This document shows positions 3,045-22,086 of a stretch of 26,457 bases of DNA, piece by piece. The position numbers and the translations under genes were made by a program. Each line of letters opens with the position of its first letter. Position 1 is the stretch's first letter. The stretch lies in IMG/VR virus record IMGVR_UViG_3300042453_002706, positions 1-26,457 of that record; one strand, 5' to 3'. The notes under the pieces were generated by a model. It was not told where the DNA came from, did no database searches, and saw nothing but the letters and a program-made list of their open reading frames with translations. Origin of the DNA: a virus.

Positions 3045-3482
3045 TTAAAACTTAAATCCCTCAAATGTTTTTTTAGGTTTTCTGTCTTCAAAATTATACT
3101 CTTCTTCTTTTCCAGAGTCAAGTACATCACTTTGAGCAGATTGTTCACAATCATAAAGTCTCATTTTAGCTCTGTCAATACCAACTACAAATCGTTTATG
3201 AACAGTTGGATCTGAATAACGATTTTTAAGTTGCTTAATCATAATTTGACCAAGTTCTTCAAGTTCTTCAGTAGAAATCAATGCCAACAATAAGTCTGCA
3301 GTCATTGGACCTCCAATACTTTCCGAAGTATCTGTCAAATCAATGTCGCTATTATTAATTCCACTATTATGTGTAAGAATATCATTTGCAAAAAAAAGAT
3401 TATCCCCAGATACTGTAATATCTACAGTCTTTCGTTTTCCAATTTTTTTAATTGACAATATTTCATCTAAAGAAATTTGCAT
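3045..3482 (-). CDS. 41: Replicative helicase gp41, C-terminal half preceded by a C-intein
   Basis: 145 residues. Residues 1-39 are a split C-intein (begins MQISLDEILSIKKIGKRKTV, ends FFANDILTHN) with the conserved penultimate His and terminal Asn, followed by Ser40 as the +1 nucleophile. Residues 40-145 are the C-terminal part of the DnaB-family helicase gp41 (SGINNSDIDLTDTSESIGG). Joined to the N-terminal half this gives about 457 residues, near the 475 of T4 gp41. A clear ribosome-binding site (GAGGAAG) precedes the ATG, so it is translated separately. The product should be inactive until trans-spliced to the partner at 3523-4848. Confidence 0.92.
   Translation of the reverse strand: MQISLDEILSIKKIGKRKTVDITVSGDNLFFANDILTHNSGINNSDIDLTDTSESIGGPMTADLLLALISTEELEELGQIMIKQLKNRYSDPTVHKRFVVGIDRAKMRLYDCEQSAQSDVLDSGKEEEYNFEDRKPKKTFEGFKF
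3366..3482 (-). other. Split C-intein (39 aa)
   Basis: Encodes residues 1-39 of the downstream gp41 ORF. The VDITVSGDNLFFANDILTHN stretch matches the C-terminal splicing blocks, with the catalytic His-Asn pair and a Ser at the first extein position. The length matches known natural split C-inteins of phage gp41 type such as gp41-1. It should associate with the N-intein at 3526-3795. Confidence 0.93.
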
Positions 3483-3522
3483 TTTTCTTCCTCAGTAAAT
3501 TGTAATACATTAAATAATTCAT

Positions 3523-4848
3523 TCAAATCAACTTAGTAAATAATTTATCACCAACAGAAAGACCACTCAAAATATTTTTTTCTCCACTAGATGTTGGGAA
3601 AATATGTTTATTAGAACACAAGATTTTTTTACCAGATTTTGTAGTGATTTCATAAACATCTTGTTCCTCTACAGGAAAAACGTGTTCTACTTTTACATAT
3701 CCAGAATGAGATTCTATTTCATCACCAATTTTAATATCTTGAATTTGAATGGTTTCACCTCCACGTTTAATTAATAAGGTATCTAAACCTAAGCAACGAT
3801 TTACCTGAGTGGCTGTAATTAGAGGAACATTATGCTCTACAGCAAGACCACGAAGTTCTTCTGCGATGGATTTTACATAACTATAAGAATTCACAGACAT
3901 ATTTCCTTTATATCTGGATGAAGAACAAATATTCATATAATCAATTACCAACAGGTCTGGTTTAAATGATTTTTTCAAATAAAGTTCATTCAATAACGAA
4001 TTAAAATGTCCTGAGTGAGCGGAAGCTGTAGGATATTCTTTAATGATTAAAGTTCCTTGAGTTTTTTTGGAGAGAGAATTTATTTTAGTATCAAAAATAG
4101 TCTTCGGTAATGAAGCAAAATCTTTAATATCTACATTCAATAAATTTGCATCAATTCTTTCTGCAATTTTTTCTTCAGACATTTCTAAGGTAATGTATAA
4201 AACATTTTTACCTTGAAGAAGTGTTGAAGCAGCGATGTGACAAAGAGCAAGACTTTTTCCTACACCAGTAGGCGACATCAGAATCGTCATCGTTTTCTTT
4301 ATAATTCCACCCTTGGTAATCTTATTCAGATATTCAATATCAAATTCAAGTTTTTCTTCTTTGCGTGTATAAAAGTCATATCTTTCTTCATAATCTTGAA
4401 AATAATCATGTCCAATATGATTATCAAAAGATACTGCAAGTGCATCTTGAAGAATTGATGGAATTGAATCTTTAGATTTATCTCCTTTACCATCAGCCAA
4501 TTGAATTGCTTCCATCAGAGCAAGATAAATTGCTCTTTCTCTGCACCACTTTTCAGTAGTATCAATTAACCAATTTTGTTCTGAAGATATATTTTCCAGA
4601 CAATCAATAAGATGAATAATCTTATTGAATTGGTCTTCATTTACATCTGTTCTCTTTTGAGTTTCAATTGAAAGAACTTCTTTTGTTGGTGGATTATTGT
4701 ATTCGGAAACAAATTCTAAAATTTCTTCAAATACTACTCTTTGATTCTGGTCTTCAAAATATTCGGGTTTGAGAAATGGTAATACTTTTCTTAAGTAGTC
4801 TTCATTATAAAGTAGATTTCTGATAATTAAAAATTCAATTTTTTCCAT
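3523..4848 (-). CDS. 41: Replicative helicase gp41, N-terminal half ending in an N-intein
   Basis: 441 residues. Residues 1-351 are the N-terminal domain and most of the RecA-like motor of gp41, the hexameric helicase that unwinds the phage replication fork. The Walker A motif is SPTGVGKS (about residues 192-199) and the Walker B-like stretch is PDLLVIDYMN. The extein ends with ATQVNR, which corresponds to the SQLNR-type H3 motif of DnaB helicases. Residues 352-441 are an N-intein starting with Cys352 (CLGLDTLLIKRGGETIQ) with a block-B-like region (KKILCSNKHIFPT). The ORF then stops, so helicase activity needs protein trans-splicing with 3045-3482. It starts directly after the stop of the oxygenase gene. 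Confidence 0.93.
   Translation of the reverse strand: MEKIEFLIIRNLLYNEDYLRKVLPFLKPEYFEDQNQRVVFEEILEFVSEYNNPPTKEVLSIETQKRTDVNEDQFNKIIHLIDCLENISSEQNWLIDTTEKWCRERAIYLALMEAIQLADGKGDKSKDSIPSILQDALAVSFDNHIGHDYFQDYEERYDFYTRKEEKLEFDIEYLNKITKGGIIKKTMTILMSPTGVGKSLALCHIAASTLLQGKNVLYITLEMSEEKIAERIDANLLNVDIKDFASLPKTIFDTKINSLSKKTQGTLIIKEYPTASAHSGHFNSLLNELYLKKSFKPDLLVIDYMNICSSSRYKGNMSVNSYSYVKSIAEELRGLAVEHNVPLITATQVNRCLGLDTLLIKRGGETIQIQDIKIGDEIESHSGYVKVEHVFPVEEQDVYEITTKSGKKILCSNKHIFPTSSGEKNILSGLSVGDKLFTKLI
3526..3795 (-). other. Split N-intein (90 aa)
   Basis: Encodes residues 352-441 of the upstream gp41 ORF. It begins with the nucleophilic Cys, followed by IQIQDIKIGDEIESHSG and the block B region with His (CSNKHIFPT), and ends at VGDKLFTKLI before a TGA. 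The length is typical of naturally split N-inteins (about 88-100 residues). No endonuclease domain is present here or in the 40-bp gap to the C-intein ORF. Confidence 0.93.
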
Positions 4849-12141: not shown

Positions 12142-12349
12142 AATTTAATTTACAAACGGACTTTTCAAAATTATTCACAGTTTTAAGAGTCATTTCAGAA
12201 CTCTTTTGAGAAATAGTTGATTTATCTAATCCCAATTCCCAACCCATAGCACATTTGTTACAGGTTTCTCCAGTACACTCCCAACCACTATGACACTTTT
12301 CACATCCTTTACCTCCACATAAATTACAAACAGGATGACTATTATCCAT
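12131..12349 (-). CDS. Small cysteine-rich zinc-finger protein
   Basis: 72 residues. The N-terminal half has the spacing CNLCGGKGCEKCHSGWECTG then CNKC, like the CxxCxGxG zinc-binding repeats of DnaJ, so it probably binds one or two zinc ions. The rest (LDKSTISQKSSEMTLKTVNN) has no known motif. A GTG one codon upstream (12352) is also possible; I prefer the ATG. It overlaps the gp44 start by 11 nt. A role in DNA or protein binding near the clamp loader is only a guess. Confidence 0.65.
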   Translation of the reverse strand: MDNSHPVCNLCGGKGCEKCHSGWECTGETCNKCAMGWELGLDKSTISQKSSEMTLKTVNNFEKSVCKLNYDK

Positions 12350-12395
12350 CACTTAAATCCATTCGAGTTTAGTTTAGCACGACAATCAGCAAAAA

Positions 12396-12965
12396 TCAAG
12401 AACCTTTTTCTTTTCTTCGTTTTGCTGCCTCACTCATTTTTCTTTTAGTTTCTTCTGTATGTTTTCTCCCATAAAAGGAATTGTTTTCTCCAAGTCGATT
12501 TAGTTTATTTTTTTCACTAATCTTTATTCTAGTTTCTTTGGAAATTACATTACCTTGTAGAGATTTTCTTATTCTATCTTTTGTTTCTTTCGTATGTTTT
12601 TTACCATAATGAGGACCCTCTTTACCTCTTTTACCATAGTTAGGATTGTTTTCTCCACTCATCCTTTCACTTTGCTTTTTCTTAACTTCCTCACTTCTTA
12701 CAGTGCCAGAAGCACCATCACCACCATCAGTCATATTATAAAGAATACCAGTTCCCAAATCCTTTCTACCGAACACAGCAATCATATAGATTTCGTGTCT
12801 AAATGCCTCTGCTTCAGTTAGATTTTGTTTGAGGTATATTATTCTACTTTTATCTTTGGGGGGTTTTATACTTCTTTGTTTAGAGTTAATTCTATTACCT
12901 TTACCCTTACCAATATAATAAGGAGTTTTATCTTCACGCAAATATGCGTAAGTGTAGTAATACAT
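12396..12965 (-). CDS. GIY-YIG homing endonuclease with NUMOD3 repeats (HEG A)
   Basis: 189 residues from ATG 12965. The N-terminal catalytic domain has YYYTYAYLREDKTPYYIGKG, a GIY-YIG variant, followed by a likely catalytic Glu (EAEAFRHEIYMIAVFG) and the family Asn in ILYNMTDGGDGASG. From about residue 100 there are NUMOD3-type DNA-binding repeats (GENNPNYGKRGKEGPHYGKK, GENNSFYGRKHTEETKRKM). A TTG at 12989 is in frame, but it lies in the right arm of the leader, so ATG is preferred. Such free-standing endonucleases cut phage genomes lacking the gene and spread by repair. It lies between the gp45 and gp44 regions, replication genes that are common homing targets. Confidence 0.9.
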   Translation of the reverse strand: MYYYTYAYLREDKTPYYIGKGKGNRINSKQRSIKPPKDKSRIIYLKQNLTEAEAFRHEIYMIAVFGRKDLGTGILYNMTDGGDGASGTVRSEEVKKKQSERMSGENNPNYGKRGKEGPHYGKKHTKETKDRIRKSLQGNVISKETRIKISEKNKLNRLGENNSFYGRKHTEETKRKMSEAAKRRKEKGS

Positions 12966-13062
12966 TTCTGCTCTGTTGTTTGTTCGCAATACTATTTATA
13001 AGGGAGAGCATTTCTACTCCCCCACCCGAAAAGTGCGAACAAACCAGGCATCATTATTTATA
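12966..13062 (-). promoter_or_regulatory. Two-arm late-promoter leader of HEG A
   Basis: In the direction of transcription: outer TATAAATA (13055-13062, overlapping the stop of the preceding gene), 10 nt ending CTG, left arm GTTTGTTCGCA (13034-13044), hairpin GGGGGAG/CTCTCCC (13002-13023), inner TATAAATA (12993-13000), 4 nt, right arm TGCGAACAAAC (12978-12988), 12 nt, ATG. The CTG before the left arm can also pair with CAG after the right arm across a 2-nt bulge. The layout is repeated at HEG B and HEG C. Confidence 0.8.
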
Positions 13063-16587: not shown

Positions 16588-17400
16588 TTACCAATTATCC
16601 TGAAGTTCATTGCTCCTAGGTCTTCCTGCATCTCTTTTACGACCACCTTCTCTTCTATTATCGTCCTCTTTTCTTTTGGACTTGTTAGGATTATGAGTAT
16701 CTGCAACCTTGGCCATTTTAGCAACTTGCTTATCTACTTTTTCATCTCCATCATCTTTTGAAGCATAGTAAGCTTTATATGCAGCCTGCTTGATCATTTT
16801 ACCTACAGGAAGTTTTTTATAACCTTCACAAATACTCTCTCTCCAATCTTCACTCATATTCACCATAATTGCTTCTGCTGCTTCTGGTGTTTCAGCATAT
16901 CCTTCATCAAGAAGATGTGAGAGGATGATATCGTAGAGGTCTACTTGTTCAGGAAGTCCTTTTTCCCCACCAACTTTACCCCAATGTTTGGGTTTACGTA
17001 CTCCACCAATCGTTGGACTATCTCTTTCGGATTTATTAAGAATCAACTCATTCTTAAATGCTTTTTGAGCATTTTTAGGCATTTTTCCTGCTTTTGTAGT
17101 CTTAAACTTTCTATTTGGTTGAATTCTTGGTTCAGGTCTTCCATATCTTCTTCCTGTGCTTTGAACATATCCATGTTCATCTGCGTGTTTTGCAGTTTCA
17201 GGTCCATATCTTCTTTCAATATGTGATCTAATTTTTGCTTCTCGTTCAAAATCATCTTCATCCGCATAATCATCACCCGCAGTAGCATATGCTCTACCAT
17301 ATGCTTTTATAAATGCCTTTTTGAGTCCTTCATCAAGTTGCTGTTCTTGATAAACTTCCAAATATGCTTCTTGTAGATTGCGAATGTCTTTAGCGTCCAT
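16588..17400 (-). CDS. Cyanophage structural-type protein, paralogue of 1457-2275
   Basis: 270 residues. It shares the MDAKDIRNLQEAYLEVYQEQ start and the block YDIILSHLLDEGYAETPEAA plus EAIMVNMSEDWRESI (about residues 155-190) with the protein at 1457-2275. The regions between and after these blocks are different, basic and of low complexity, so the two proteins seem to be shuffled around fixed modules. It lies between the CobT-like and CobS-like genes but has its own late-type promoter and terminator, so it need not act with them. Function unknown; a virion-associated role is an inference from the late promoter. Confidence 0.75.
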   Translation of the reverse strand: MDAKDIRNLQEAYLEVYQEQQLDEGLKKAFIKAYGRAYATAGDDYADEDDFEREAKIRSHIERRYGPETAKHADEHGYVQSTGRRYGRPEPRIQPNRKFKTTKAGKMPKNAQKAFKNELILNKSERDSPTIGGVRKPKHWGKVGGEKGLPEQVDLYDIILSHLLDEGYAETPEAAEAIMVNMSEDWRESICEGYKKLPVGKMIKQAAYKAYYASKDDGDEKVDKQVAKMAKVADTHNPNKSKRKEDDNRREGGRKRDAGRPRSNELQDNW

Positions 17401-19717: not shown

Positions 19718-20584
19718 CTAGGACACCTTTTTAAGTGTCCTCCCAATATTCCAGTCATCACCAGGGCAATCAAAACTCATTATATTATTTTTTCCATCAG
19801 TCCACCATCGTTTTCCTTTTCTTGCCTCACTTTGTTTTTTTCTAGTTTCATCACTAACAATTTTACCTAAATTATTTTTTCTAGTTTTTTCTCTAAATTC
19901 TTTTGTTTTATATACTTTACTCTTGGAATTGAATACTCTACCAAGTAACCAGCCTTCACCAGGACAATCAATACAATGTTTATCTTTAGTTCCATTATTC
20001 CACCATCTTCTTTGTGATACTTGTTTAGAAATTATTTCTTTATGTTCTTTTGTTAATTTTCTACCACTATTTTTTTCTGCTATTTTTTGTTTTGTCTCGT
20101 CACTACATACTCGTCCAATATTGATATTGGGTCTGCCTCTATACCATTCATCGCCAGGACAATCTTTTGAATGTTTTGTATTTACTCCATCAGTCCACCA
20201 AACTCTCAATTTGTTTTTTTCAGACATTTTTCTCACTTCTTCTTCGGTAGGTTTTCTTCCTTTTATTGTATTAATAAATCTTATCCTTGATGATTCATAA
20301 AGATGAGAATTTAAATATTCATTTTTAGTTTTTTGATTATTCATACACCAAAAAGCAGTAATCATCTTTTTGGTCCTGCCATCATTTATTCCATATCTTT
20401 TTATCAGTGCTTTTTCCAATAAGGCGTGAGAAATATAATGTTCTCTTGCAGTAAGCACTACAATTTTATTATTATTTCCATAAATGCTTACAGGAAATAT
20501 ATGGTGTTTTTCTATATAACCTTCAGGTGGAACTCTATGTTCTGCTTTCCTTATAAGATTACAATAAGCCTTTAGATAATTCAT
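19718..20584 (-). CDS. HNH homing endonuclease with repeated DNA-binding modules (HEG B)
   Basis: 288 residues. The HNH site is IEKHHIFPVSIYGNNNKIVV followed by LTAREHYISHALL (about 24-56), with His28 and the central Asn visible. The rest alternates NUMOD3-type helices (GRKPTEEEVRKMSEKNK, SGRKLTKEHKEIISKQ, SDETRKKQSEARKG) with three copies of a WW-x-DG...DCPGDxWxxGR module at about residues 128-150, 193-216 and 256-280. These repeats probably read long DNA target sites. The gene is free-standing, between the candidate sRNA and the CobT-like gene, with no sign of an intron around it. Confidence 0.88.
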   Translation of the reverse strand: MNYLKAYCNLIRKAEHRVPPEGYIEKHHIFPVSIYGNNNKIVVLTAREHYISHALLEKALIKRYGINDGRTKKMITAFWCMNNQKTKNEYLNSHLYESSRIRFINTIKGRKPTEEEVRKMSEKNKLRVWWTDGVNTKHSKDCPGDEWYRGRPNINIGRVCSDETKQKIAEKNSGRKLTKEHKEIISKQVSQRRWWNNGTKDKHCIDCPGEGWLLGRVFNSKSKVYKTKEFREKTRKNNLGKIVSDETRKKQSEARKGKRWWTDGKNNIMSFDCPGDDWNIGRTLKKVS

Positions 20585-20681
20585 AATTCTACTCTATGGT
20601 CTGCATACCTATTTATAAGATAAAGGAGGGACTTTCACCCTCCTCCTGTAAGTTTGCAGACCACAGGTATAGGTATTTATA
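20585..20681 (-). promoter_or_regulatory. Two-arm late-promoter leader of HEG B
   Basis: In the direction of transcription: outer TATAAATA (20674-20681), 10 nt ending CTG, left arm TGGTCTGCA (20655-20663), hairpin GGAGGG/CCCTCC with TTTATCT tail (20625-20643), inner TATAAATA (20610-20617), 4 nt, right arm TGCAGACCA (20597-20605), 12 nt, ATG. With the CTG and the TAG after the right arm the stem extends to 12 bp with one G-U pair. Confidence 0.8.
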
Positions 20682-21169: not shown

Positions 21170-21979
21170 TTATTCTAATCTAATTCTCTTTGAAGTGTCT
21201 ATACCTCTATGTTTTTGATAAAGAGTAAGTGGTCCTGCATTTGTAATATAATTAGTTTCTAAACACATCCATTTTTGTTGTGCGCTTTTTTTTCCACCCT
21301 TTTTACCATTTTTTACTCTTTCGTTATTAGTTAATCCATAAATACCAAGTTTTTTATTTTTAAGTGTTTTTTGTGCGTTTTTTCCACCTTTAGAACCGCC
21401 AATTTTACCTGCCAAACTTTTTTCTTCTTTACTCATCCCAAAAAAACCAGAATTATTTTTTCTTTGAGTTTCGTGGGATTTTTTTACATTTTCTTTTATT
21501 TGGTCTTTACTCATTCCACATATACCAAGTTTTAATTTTTTACAAGTATTTCCTCCTTTTCTACTATTTTCTTTTCTTTGTTCTGGAGTTAAAGAAAATA
21601 TTGATGTTTTATTTTCCTTATGATTTAATCCCACTATCTTACCTCCAATTTTACCACCTATTTTACCTGCTTTTCTTTTTTGCTCTATAGAAAAAACACC
21701 TAAACAATTTGCATTTAAGCACCACTTATCAGTATTATAAACATGTTTAATTAATCTACCTTCAACTTCCTGGGCTTTAATATATCCTTCATCAGTATAA
21801 TCAAATAATTCTAATATCTGCTTCTTTAGAGTATAAAACTCCCAACACCATTTGTTTGTTACGGGAGAACCCCAATATTCTTCATCAAAATATTTTTCTT
21901 TCTTACTACCATAATAGTAATAAGGAACCTCTTCAAAGGTAATCTTATATGTATATATTCTTGGACTTTGTGAAGTCAT
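21170..21979 (-). CDS. GIY-YIG-like homing endonuclease with Lys/Gly-rich repeats (HEG C)
   Basis: 269 residues. The N-terminus IYTYKITFEEVPYYYYGSKK fits a divergent GIY-YIG core, followed by a likely catalytic Glu region (AQEVEGRLIKHVYNTDKWCL, then NANCLG). Residues about 105-230 hold repeats of the type GMSKEEKSLAGKIGGSKGGK and LGIYGLTNNERVKNGKKGGK, as in many phage homing endonucleases, and the C-terminus (WMCLETNYITNAGPLTLYQK, then HRGIDTSKRIRLE) is a DNA-contact tail I recall from the same group. It differs from HEG A in repeats and size, so it was acquired separately. Confidence 0.82.
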   Translation of the reverse strand: MTSQSPRIYTYKITFEEVPYYYYGSKKEKYFDEEYWGSPVTNKWCWEFYTLKKQILELFDYTDEGYIKAQEVEGRLIKHVYNTDKWCLNANCLGVFSIEQKRKAGKIGGKIGGKIVGLNHKENKTSIFSLTPEQRKENSRKGGNTCKKLKLGICGMSKDQIKENVKKSHETQRKNNSGFFGMSKEEKSLAGKIGGSKGGKNAQKTLKNKKLGIYGLTNNERVKNGKKGGKKSAQQKWMCLETNYITNAGPLTLYQKHRGIDTSKRIRLE

Positions 21980-22086
21980 TTGTATTCTATTAAGACGGCA
22001 TTATTATTTATATAAGAAAAGGTGCCCCAAAGAGCACCTAATCTTATCTGTAGAGATTGCCGTCTTAACAGATATTATTATTTATC
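21980..22086 (-). promoter_or_regulatory. Two-arm late-promoter leader of HEG C
   Basis: In the direction of transcription: outer GATAAATA (22079-22086, one base off the late box), 10 nt ending CTG, left arm TTAAGACGGCA (22058-22068), hairpin AGGTGC/GCACCT with TTTTCTT tail (22020-22039), inner TATAAATA (22005-22012), 4 nt, right arm TGCCGTCTTAA (21990-22000), 10 nt, ATG. With CTG and the TAG after the right arm the stem extends to 14 bp with one G-U pair. Confidence 0.8.

Follow-up and report, generated by a model that had tools for sequence, protein, structure and literature searches.

Three nuclease genes of a T4-like virus (HEG A, HEG B and HEG C) are preceded by the same leader, which combines two late boxes and two complementary arms with a small helix and a terminator-like hairpin. 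The leader is linked exclusively to nucleases, and there is practically no doubt that it represents a genuine family. Its conserved folds suggest that the nuclease might be kept off until late infection, perhaps with the help of a short silencing RNA. That the leader is a modular late-expression unit on mobile nuclease genes of T4-like cyanophages, equipped with such a short same-strand silencing RNA, is a reading to which we give about even chances.

Three leaders of the same layout in one stretch of viral DNA

The window, which is the whole stretch analysed here (a complete IMG/VR record of 26,457 bases), carries T4-like genes and has its best DNA matches in Synechococcus phages. Coordinates and spacings were rechecked; all three leaders are genuine and are located on the minus strand. 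Each follows the order outer late box, P1 strand, ARM, P1′, terminator-like hairpin, inner late box, ARM′ and ATG. The leaders and their genes are:

Leader C
22079..22086, minus strand: outer late box GATAAATA, predicted +1 the A at 22073
22068..22073, minus strand: P1 5′ strand ATCTGT, beginning at the predicted outer +1
22058..22068, minus strand: ARM TTAAGACGGCA
22046..22051, minus strand: P1′ ACAGAT, local partner (from covariation and the MFE of the short RNA)
22020..22039, minus strand: terminator-like hairpin AGGTGCTCTTTGGGGCACCT, then TTTTCTTA
22005..22012, minus strand: inner late box TATAAATA, predicted +1 the G at 21999
21990..22000, minus strand: ARM′ TGCCGTCTTAA
21170..21979, minus strand: HEG C, 269 aa, GIY-YIG-like by motif IYTYKITFEEVPYYYYG

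Leader B
20674..20681, minus strand: outer late box TATAAATA, predicted +1 the A at 20668
20655..20663, minus strand: ARM TGGTCTGCA, pairing continues through CTG
20625..20643, minus strand: terminator-like hairpin GGAGGGTGAAAGTCCCTCC
20610..20617, minus strand: inner late box TATAAATA
20597..20605, minus strand: ARM′ TGCAGACCA
19718..20584, minus strand: HEG B, 288 aa, HNH-type homing endonuclease (PHROG 655, E 9e-33)

Leader A
13055..13062, minus strand: outer late box TATAAATA, predicted +1 the G at 13049
13034..13044, minus strand: ARM GTTTGTTCGCA
13002..13023, minus strand: hairpin GGGGGAGTA-GAAA-TGCTCTCCC, T run weak
12993..13000, minus strand: inner late box TATAAATA
12978..12988, minus strand: ARM′ TGCGAACAAAC
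12396..12965, minus strand: HEG A, 189 aa from ATG, GIY-YIG class by motif, NUMOD3 (PF07460, E 1.2e-20)

The strand ATCTGT of leader C has two possible partners, ACAGAT at 22046-22051 and TAGA-A-T 3′ of ARM′; the arm pairing reaches 15 nt here (TCTG with TAGA). In leader A, the TAA of the outer box doubles as the stop codon of the upstream gene. The first-pass annotation had placed leader C with its paired arms at 21980-22086 and had reported a distance of 10 nt ending in CTG between outer box and ARM, of 4 nt between inner box and ARM′, and of 12, 12 and 10 nt between ARM′ and the ATG of HEG A, B and C (for HEG C the ATG is at 21979), all of which we could reproduce. Two details had to be corrected: the outer box of leader C is GATAAATA and not TATAAATA, and the core arm of leader B is 9 bp and not 11 bp long. 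Overlooked had been the P1 helix, the +1 register common to both boxes and, between the arms, the terminator-like hairpin.

Dinucleotide shuffling of the left 95 nt (3000 shuffles per leader) produced arms as good as the observed ones in 0/3000 cases for C, 1/3000 for B and 0/3000 for A. A double-box pattern with tight gaps has two exact matches in the window, compared with 0.04 expected, and with slightly wider gaps it recovers all three leaders.

The three endonucleases had been described as belonging to different families or being clearly diverged, and indeed BLASTP detected no relatedness of HEG C to either HEG A or HEG B. HEG C itself is without a Pfam or PHROG match, and comparison with another GIY-YIG profile gave nothing significant, so its family assignment rests on the motif and on relatives, one of which (L109) matches the homing endonucleases of PHROG 314.

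Further observations were made in the window on the minus strand. Downstream of HEG A (12300-12420) the sequence AAACTCGAATGGATTTAA resembles the upstream Pyr_excise gene at its original 3′ end, as present in S-SRM01 (gp236); it looks as if the HEG A cassette had been inserted near the end of this gene, bringing its own ending. The gene for a gp41-like helicase (3045-4848) consists of two ORFs approximately 40 nt apart, which may correspond to the N- and C-terminal halves of a split-intein arrangement as found in gp41. Positions 1457-2275 and 16588-17400 code for a paralogous protein pair with the common start MDAKDIxxLQEAYLEVxQEQ and a common C-terminal block.

The leader is found before nucleases of many classes

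Altogether, at least 212 distinct leaders with the same layout were found in viral contigs and cyanophage isolates. According to their N-terminal motifs, the genes behind them encode five GIY-YIG classes, two main HNH classes, TnpB and other proteins; 6 of the leaders listed have no intact ORF downstream. A set of 56 non-redundant leaders was collected via the nuclease proteins and not via the leader sequence, and outer box, P1, ARM, P1′, hairpin, inner box and ARM′ are present in nearly all of them.

As a blind approach, a DNA pattern consisting of the two boxes and P1 was run on viral contigs, leaving arms and gene unspecified. It yielded at least 133 unique leaders, at least 128 of which are arm-bearing. 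Among the matches listed, all assignable genes behind arm-bearing leaders are nucleases; the first-pass annotation had proposed to see whether the pattern is enriched before homing genes. The 71 diverse downstream proteins belong, among the matches listed, mainly to PHROG homing and HNH endonuclease families, with one TnpB; a few of them, for instance that of L124, have no Pfam match. Five matches among those listed are armless, four without an ORF and one before a protein not recognisable as a nuclease, and these look like chance matches. When 257 Gb of genomes from bacteria and archaea were scanned with a near-identical pattern, two matches were obtained, both of which lack arms of a quality comparable to those of the leaders; occurrence of the leader in bacterial chromosomes was rejected.

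The complete genome of S-SRM01 contains 98 ATAAATA boxes, from which 10 arm-bearing matches were obtained compared with 1.3 expected after shuffling. Seven of the ten are located before nucleases of the homing type, of which some carry the annotation hypothetical or translation initiation factor 2, and two endonuclease VII genes account for the other three. No ordinary gene is preceded by such a match; an equal frequency at ordinary genes or in shuffled DNA, which had been named as evidence against the link, is not what this genome shows. Other isolates with the leader are B23, S-B68 (inner box CTAAATA) and S-CREM2 (outer box decayed); several isolate nuclease genes have a late box alone or no leader.

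The annotation as translation initiation factor 2 is found on GIY-YIG/NUMOD3-type homing endonucleases in S-SRM01 (gp114), B23 (gp45) and Sf-CH5 (SfCH5_200). One endonuclease VII gene of S-SRM01 (126143, L104) follows a perfect 20-bp hairpin with a late box in its loop, which would resemble the lock of T4 gene 49 and be of another kind than the cassette leader. TnpB genes with the homing endonuclease leader are present at L141 and L146, both on one 243-kb contig, and at L199 (PF07282, OrfB_IS605 in L141); bearing the same leader, TnpB appears to be handled like a homing endonuclease in these phages.

A second leader type was observed in Sf-CH5, where the ARM is located in the loop of the hairpin GGGCAGCA...TGCGTAAGTCCC and ARM′ abuts the ATG. 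In these type II leaders the ARM is looped in GGGCAGCAAC...GTTGCGTAAGTCCC, followed by an inner late box and by ARM′ immediately 5′ of the ATG; no clear outer late box is present. Type II loci are L045, L047, L050, L080 (3426), L091, L097, L103 (27786), L120 (2044), L148 (7882), L153 (2604), L158 and L271.

Both boxes are placed like promoters

Across the 56 leaders, nTAAT-R-Y comes after each of the two boxes; the +1 is a purine six nucleotides past the last A, usually with a C or T next. Ordinary late boxes of S-SRM01 have a purine at the equivalent place in 50 of 57 cases, which shows that both leader boxes are at promoter register. For the three leaders of the window, the predicted inner +1 falls on the second nucleotide of ARM′; in most of the 56 it is on or adjoining this nucleotide.

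In the outer box, TAAATA is preceded by A in 41 leaders, by C in 14, by T in one and never by G. Strand counts in S-SRM01 are 91:7 for ATAAATA, 21:7 for CTAAATA, 33:29 for GTAAATA and 49:37 for TTAAATA, so that a clear bias for the coding strand exists only for the first two; the letters used by the outer box (A or C in 55/56) are those with the strand bias. A run of at least three T precedes the inner box in 48/56 leaders. Judged from these sequence features, the outer promoter is rather likely to be active, and transcription might terminate at the hairpin between the arms.

Predicted competing folds of the leader RNA

The first five nucleotides of the predicted outer RNA pair perfectly with the local partner in 37/56 leaders (z 7.6) and with the segment after ARM′, allowing up to one bulged nucleotide, in 45/56 (z 9.2), both z values being upper estimates since the shuffles do not remove the relatedness of the leaders. 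Both pairings of the P1 strand covary, and 0/1000 shuffles reach either value; GCTTA, GCTTG and GCTTT, for example, vary along with both partners. The covarying base pairs include G-U pairs, and a 1-nt bulge is conserved.

MFE folding of the short outer RNA gave P1 in 53/55 cases and the terminator-like hairpin in 55/55. In the predicted short RNA, the ARM is in the P1 loop and is complementary to the downstream start region on the same strand; the duplex with the mRNA has -21.1 kcal/mol for cognate and -8.5 kcal/mol for non-cognate pairs. For the read-through RNA, the long hairpin is the predicted MFE structure in 55/55 cases. As in T4-type locks, the start region of this RNA is predicted to be hidden in the hairpin, and the inner late box is so placed that late RNA would lack the 5′ arm.

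Arms of the same genome are no more diverged than arms of different genomes (105 pairs, P = 0.38), and four same-genome pairs share a run of at least 8 nt. There is thus no sign of selection for specificity in trans, and a selection for distinct arms within a genome was dropped as unsupported.

Rfam covariance models, including that of C4 antisense RNA, have no match in the window at gathering score, and four leader-bearing loci gave a single spurious weak match up to E 1. A riboswitch or ribozyme was rejected based on the missing Rfam match and on the variable arms without a conserved core; HDV-like and pistol ribozymes, whose topologies were considered, were dropped because the conserved catalytic residues are absent.

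A model for control in cis and in trans

From this anatomy we infer the following course of events. The inner late promoter would start the nuclease mRNA at ARM′, approximately 17-25 nt 5′ of the ATG, and since this mRNA has no left arm it would be translatable. RNA coming from upstream, or read-through RNA from the outer promoter, would contain both arms and fold into a hairpin of approximately 12-17 bp over the start region, which would be a T4-type lock on early translation. At the foot of the same helix, the outer late promoter would initiate an RNA whose 5′ strand would pair locally first (P1), displaying the ARM in the loop; the hairpin 5′ of the inner box would terminate this RNA at approximately 50-60 nt. 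Beginning at its +1, the short RNA would have complementarity to the nuclease mRNA over the stretch reaching from the +1 of that mRNA to close to the start codon, and it might bind by loop contact and opening of P1, damping translation like the c4 RNA of phage P1.

The lock in cis is probable. Silencing in trans, to which promoter register, P1 and terminator point and which would resemble c4, is a tentative proposal that we hold for slightly less than evenly probable. A lock acting exclusively in cis would consist of a T4-type hairpin at the ribosome site and an insulating terminator, with no RNA acting in trans; the outer box would add late transcription or merely mark the left end of the cassette and provide a stop codon. 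I-TevI and mobE are established cases of the T4 mechanism, in which segB is implicated as well; the long hairpin is stable across all read-through RNAs, the arms have not diverged within genomes, and among the leaders listed the stop codon of the upstream gene is supplied by the TAA or TAAATAA of the outer box in 74 of 147 cases. A lock of this kind leaves unexplained, however, the covarying P1 helix with the ARM in its loop and the outer +1 at the base of the helix, and the restriction to A and C before TAAATA fits the strand bias of a promoter and not the need for a stop codon. We regard the exclusive action in cis as a serious alternative somewhat short of an even chance.

The proposed control by lock and short RNA leads to a wider picture, which is possible at a similar level: mobile nucleases of cyanophages, including TnpB, might exchange a two-promoter module, and its antisense RNA of approximately 50-60 nt with a bistable 5′ strand might dose each nuclease as the phage genomes multiply. 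If true, unrelated selfish nucleases depend on a single transferable RNA control unit; taming of expression would then be a general need of homing elements, and the control unit would evolve separately from the enzyme. With the DNA signature of the leader, homing nucleases of phages can be detected irrespective of family, even where they are unannotated or misannotated, and TnpB as well; the leader also gives a clear test case for whether a lytic T4-like phage uses antisense RNA for control.

The leader is exchanged between nuclease classes

Among the leaders listed, 20 of 100 arm cores are found in identical form before at least two nuclease classes, and the core of HEG C recurs before HNH and other GIY-YIG genes. 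This indicates that the leader is portable, and from the sequences we are highly confident that it moves between nuclease classes. The first-pass annotation had considered a portable expression cassette or a repeatedly evolved control unit. The former is supported by the identical cores at unrelated classes and by the nuclease-linked scans; the latter is disfavoured, since such identical cores indicate module swapping.

This swapping would also fit a mobility element at the DNA level, namely a shared recombination or target site for cassette exchange and insertion past gene ends with RNA structure being secondary, as would the sharp onset of conservation at the outer box (upstream of it approximately 0.1 bit per position) and the upstream stop codon that is often inside this box. 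Such an element is very improbable, since the arms vary freely while pairing (100 different cores), which a DNA target would not permit, and the promoter register is retained at both boxes. The least probable reading is a protein operator, in which each endonuclease would bind its own inverted repeat and repress its own promoters, as known for I-TevI with its operator over the late promoter (PMC2988022): the arms do flank the inner promoter, but unrelated nucleases share arm cores, and base-pair covariation with G-U pairs and a conserved bulge indicates RNA.

Comparison with known systems

The core of the portable leader would work like the late lock of T4 I-TevI and mobE, which is already known. 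Published work demonstrates or indicates late locks at I-TevI, mobE, segB and gene e (PMC2988022, PMC3014915); the set used for comparison comprised I-TevI, I-TevII, I-TevIII, segB, Aeh1 mobE and the T4 genes e, soc and 49. As in these, a hairpin contains or adjoins a late box and would make the start region inaccessible in early read-through RNA, and the late RNA begins beyond the left arm. In contrast, inspection of nine endonuclease leaders of T4 showed no more than one late box close to each gene and, if any hairpin, a short one; a fixed-register outer box, a P1 helix and an internal terminator-like hairpin are absent from all nine, and a cassette leader in T4 was therefore rejected. A leader common to unrelated nucleases likewise sets the cyanophages apart from T4. 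For T4 itself, a review from 2010 lists no functionally characterised small trans-acting regulatory RNA (PMC3014915), and we found no report in the literature of the outer promoter, the P1 loop, the terminator or the sharing by unrelated nucleases.

The CfrI antisense RNA of cyanophage S-PM2 is approximately 225 nt long and is encoded on the opposite strand over psbA and an endonuclease gene (PMC2984593). It is, like the leader RNA, a cyanophage RNA tied to a homing endonuclease, whereas the leader RNA is predicted to be from the same strand and approximately 50-60 nt long. The S-PM2 endonuclease gene has a late box and no arms.

The c4 antisense RNA is a short upstream RNA from the same strand, whose loops are complementary to the region near the downstream start site. 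The predicted leader RNA is similar: it is short, upstream and from the same strand, with a loop complementary near the start. For c4 of phages P1 and P7 (Citron and Schuster, cited in PMC12197685 and PMC8546580), a longer transcript is processed to give the RNA, and its target is an antirepressor operon, whereas the leader RNA is without an Rfam match and is predicted to have a dedicated late promoter and terminator. Outer promoter, P1 loop, terminator and shared use together suggest a same-strand antisense RNA like c4 of phage P1.
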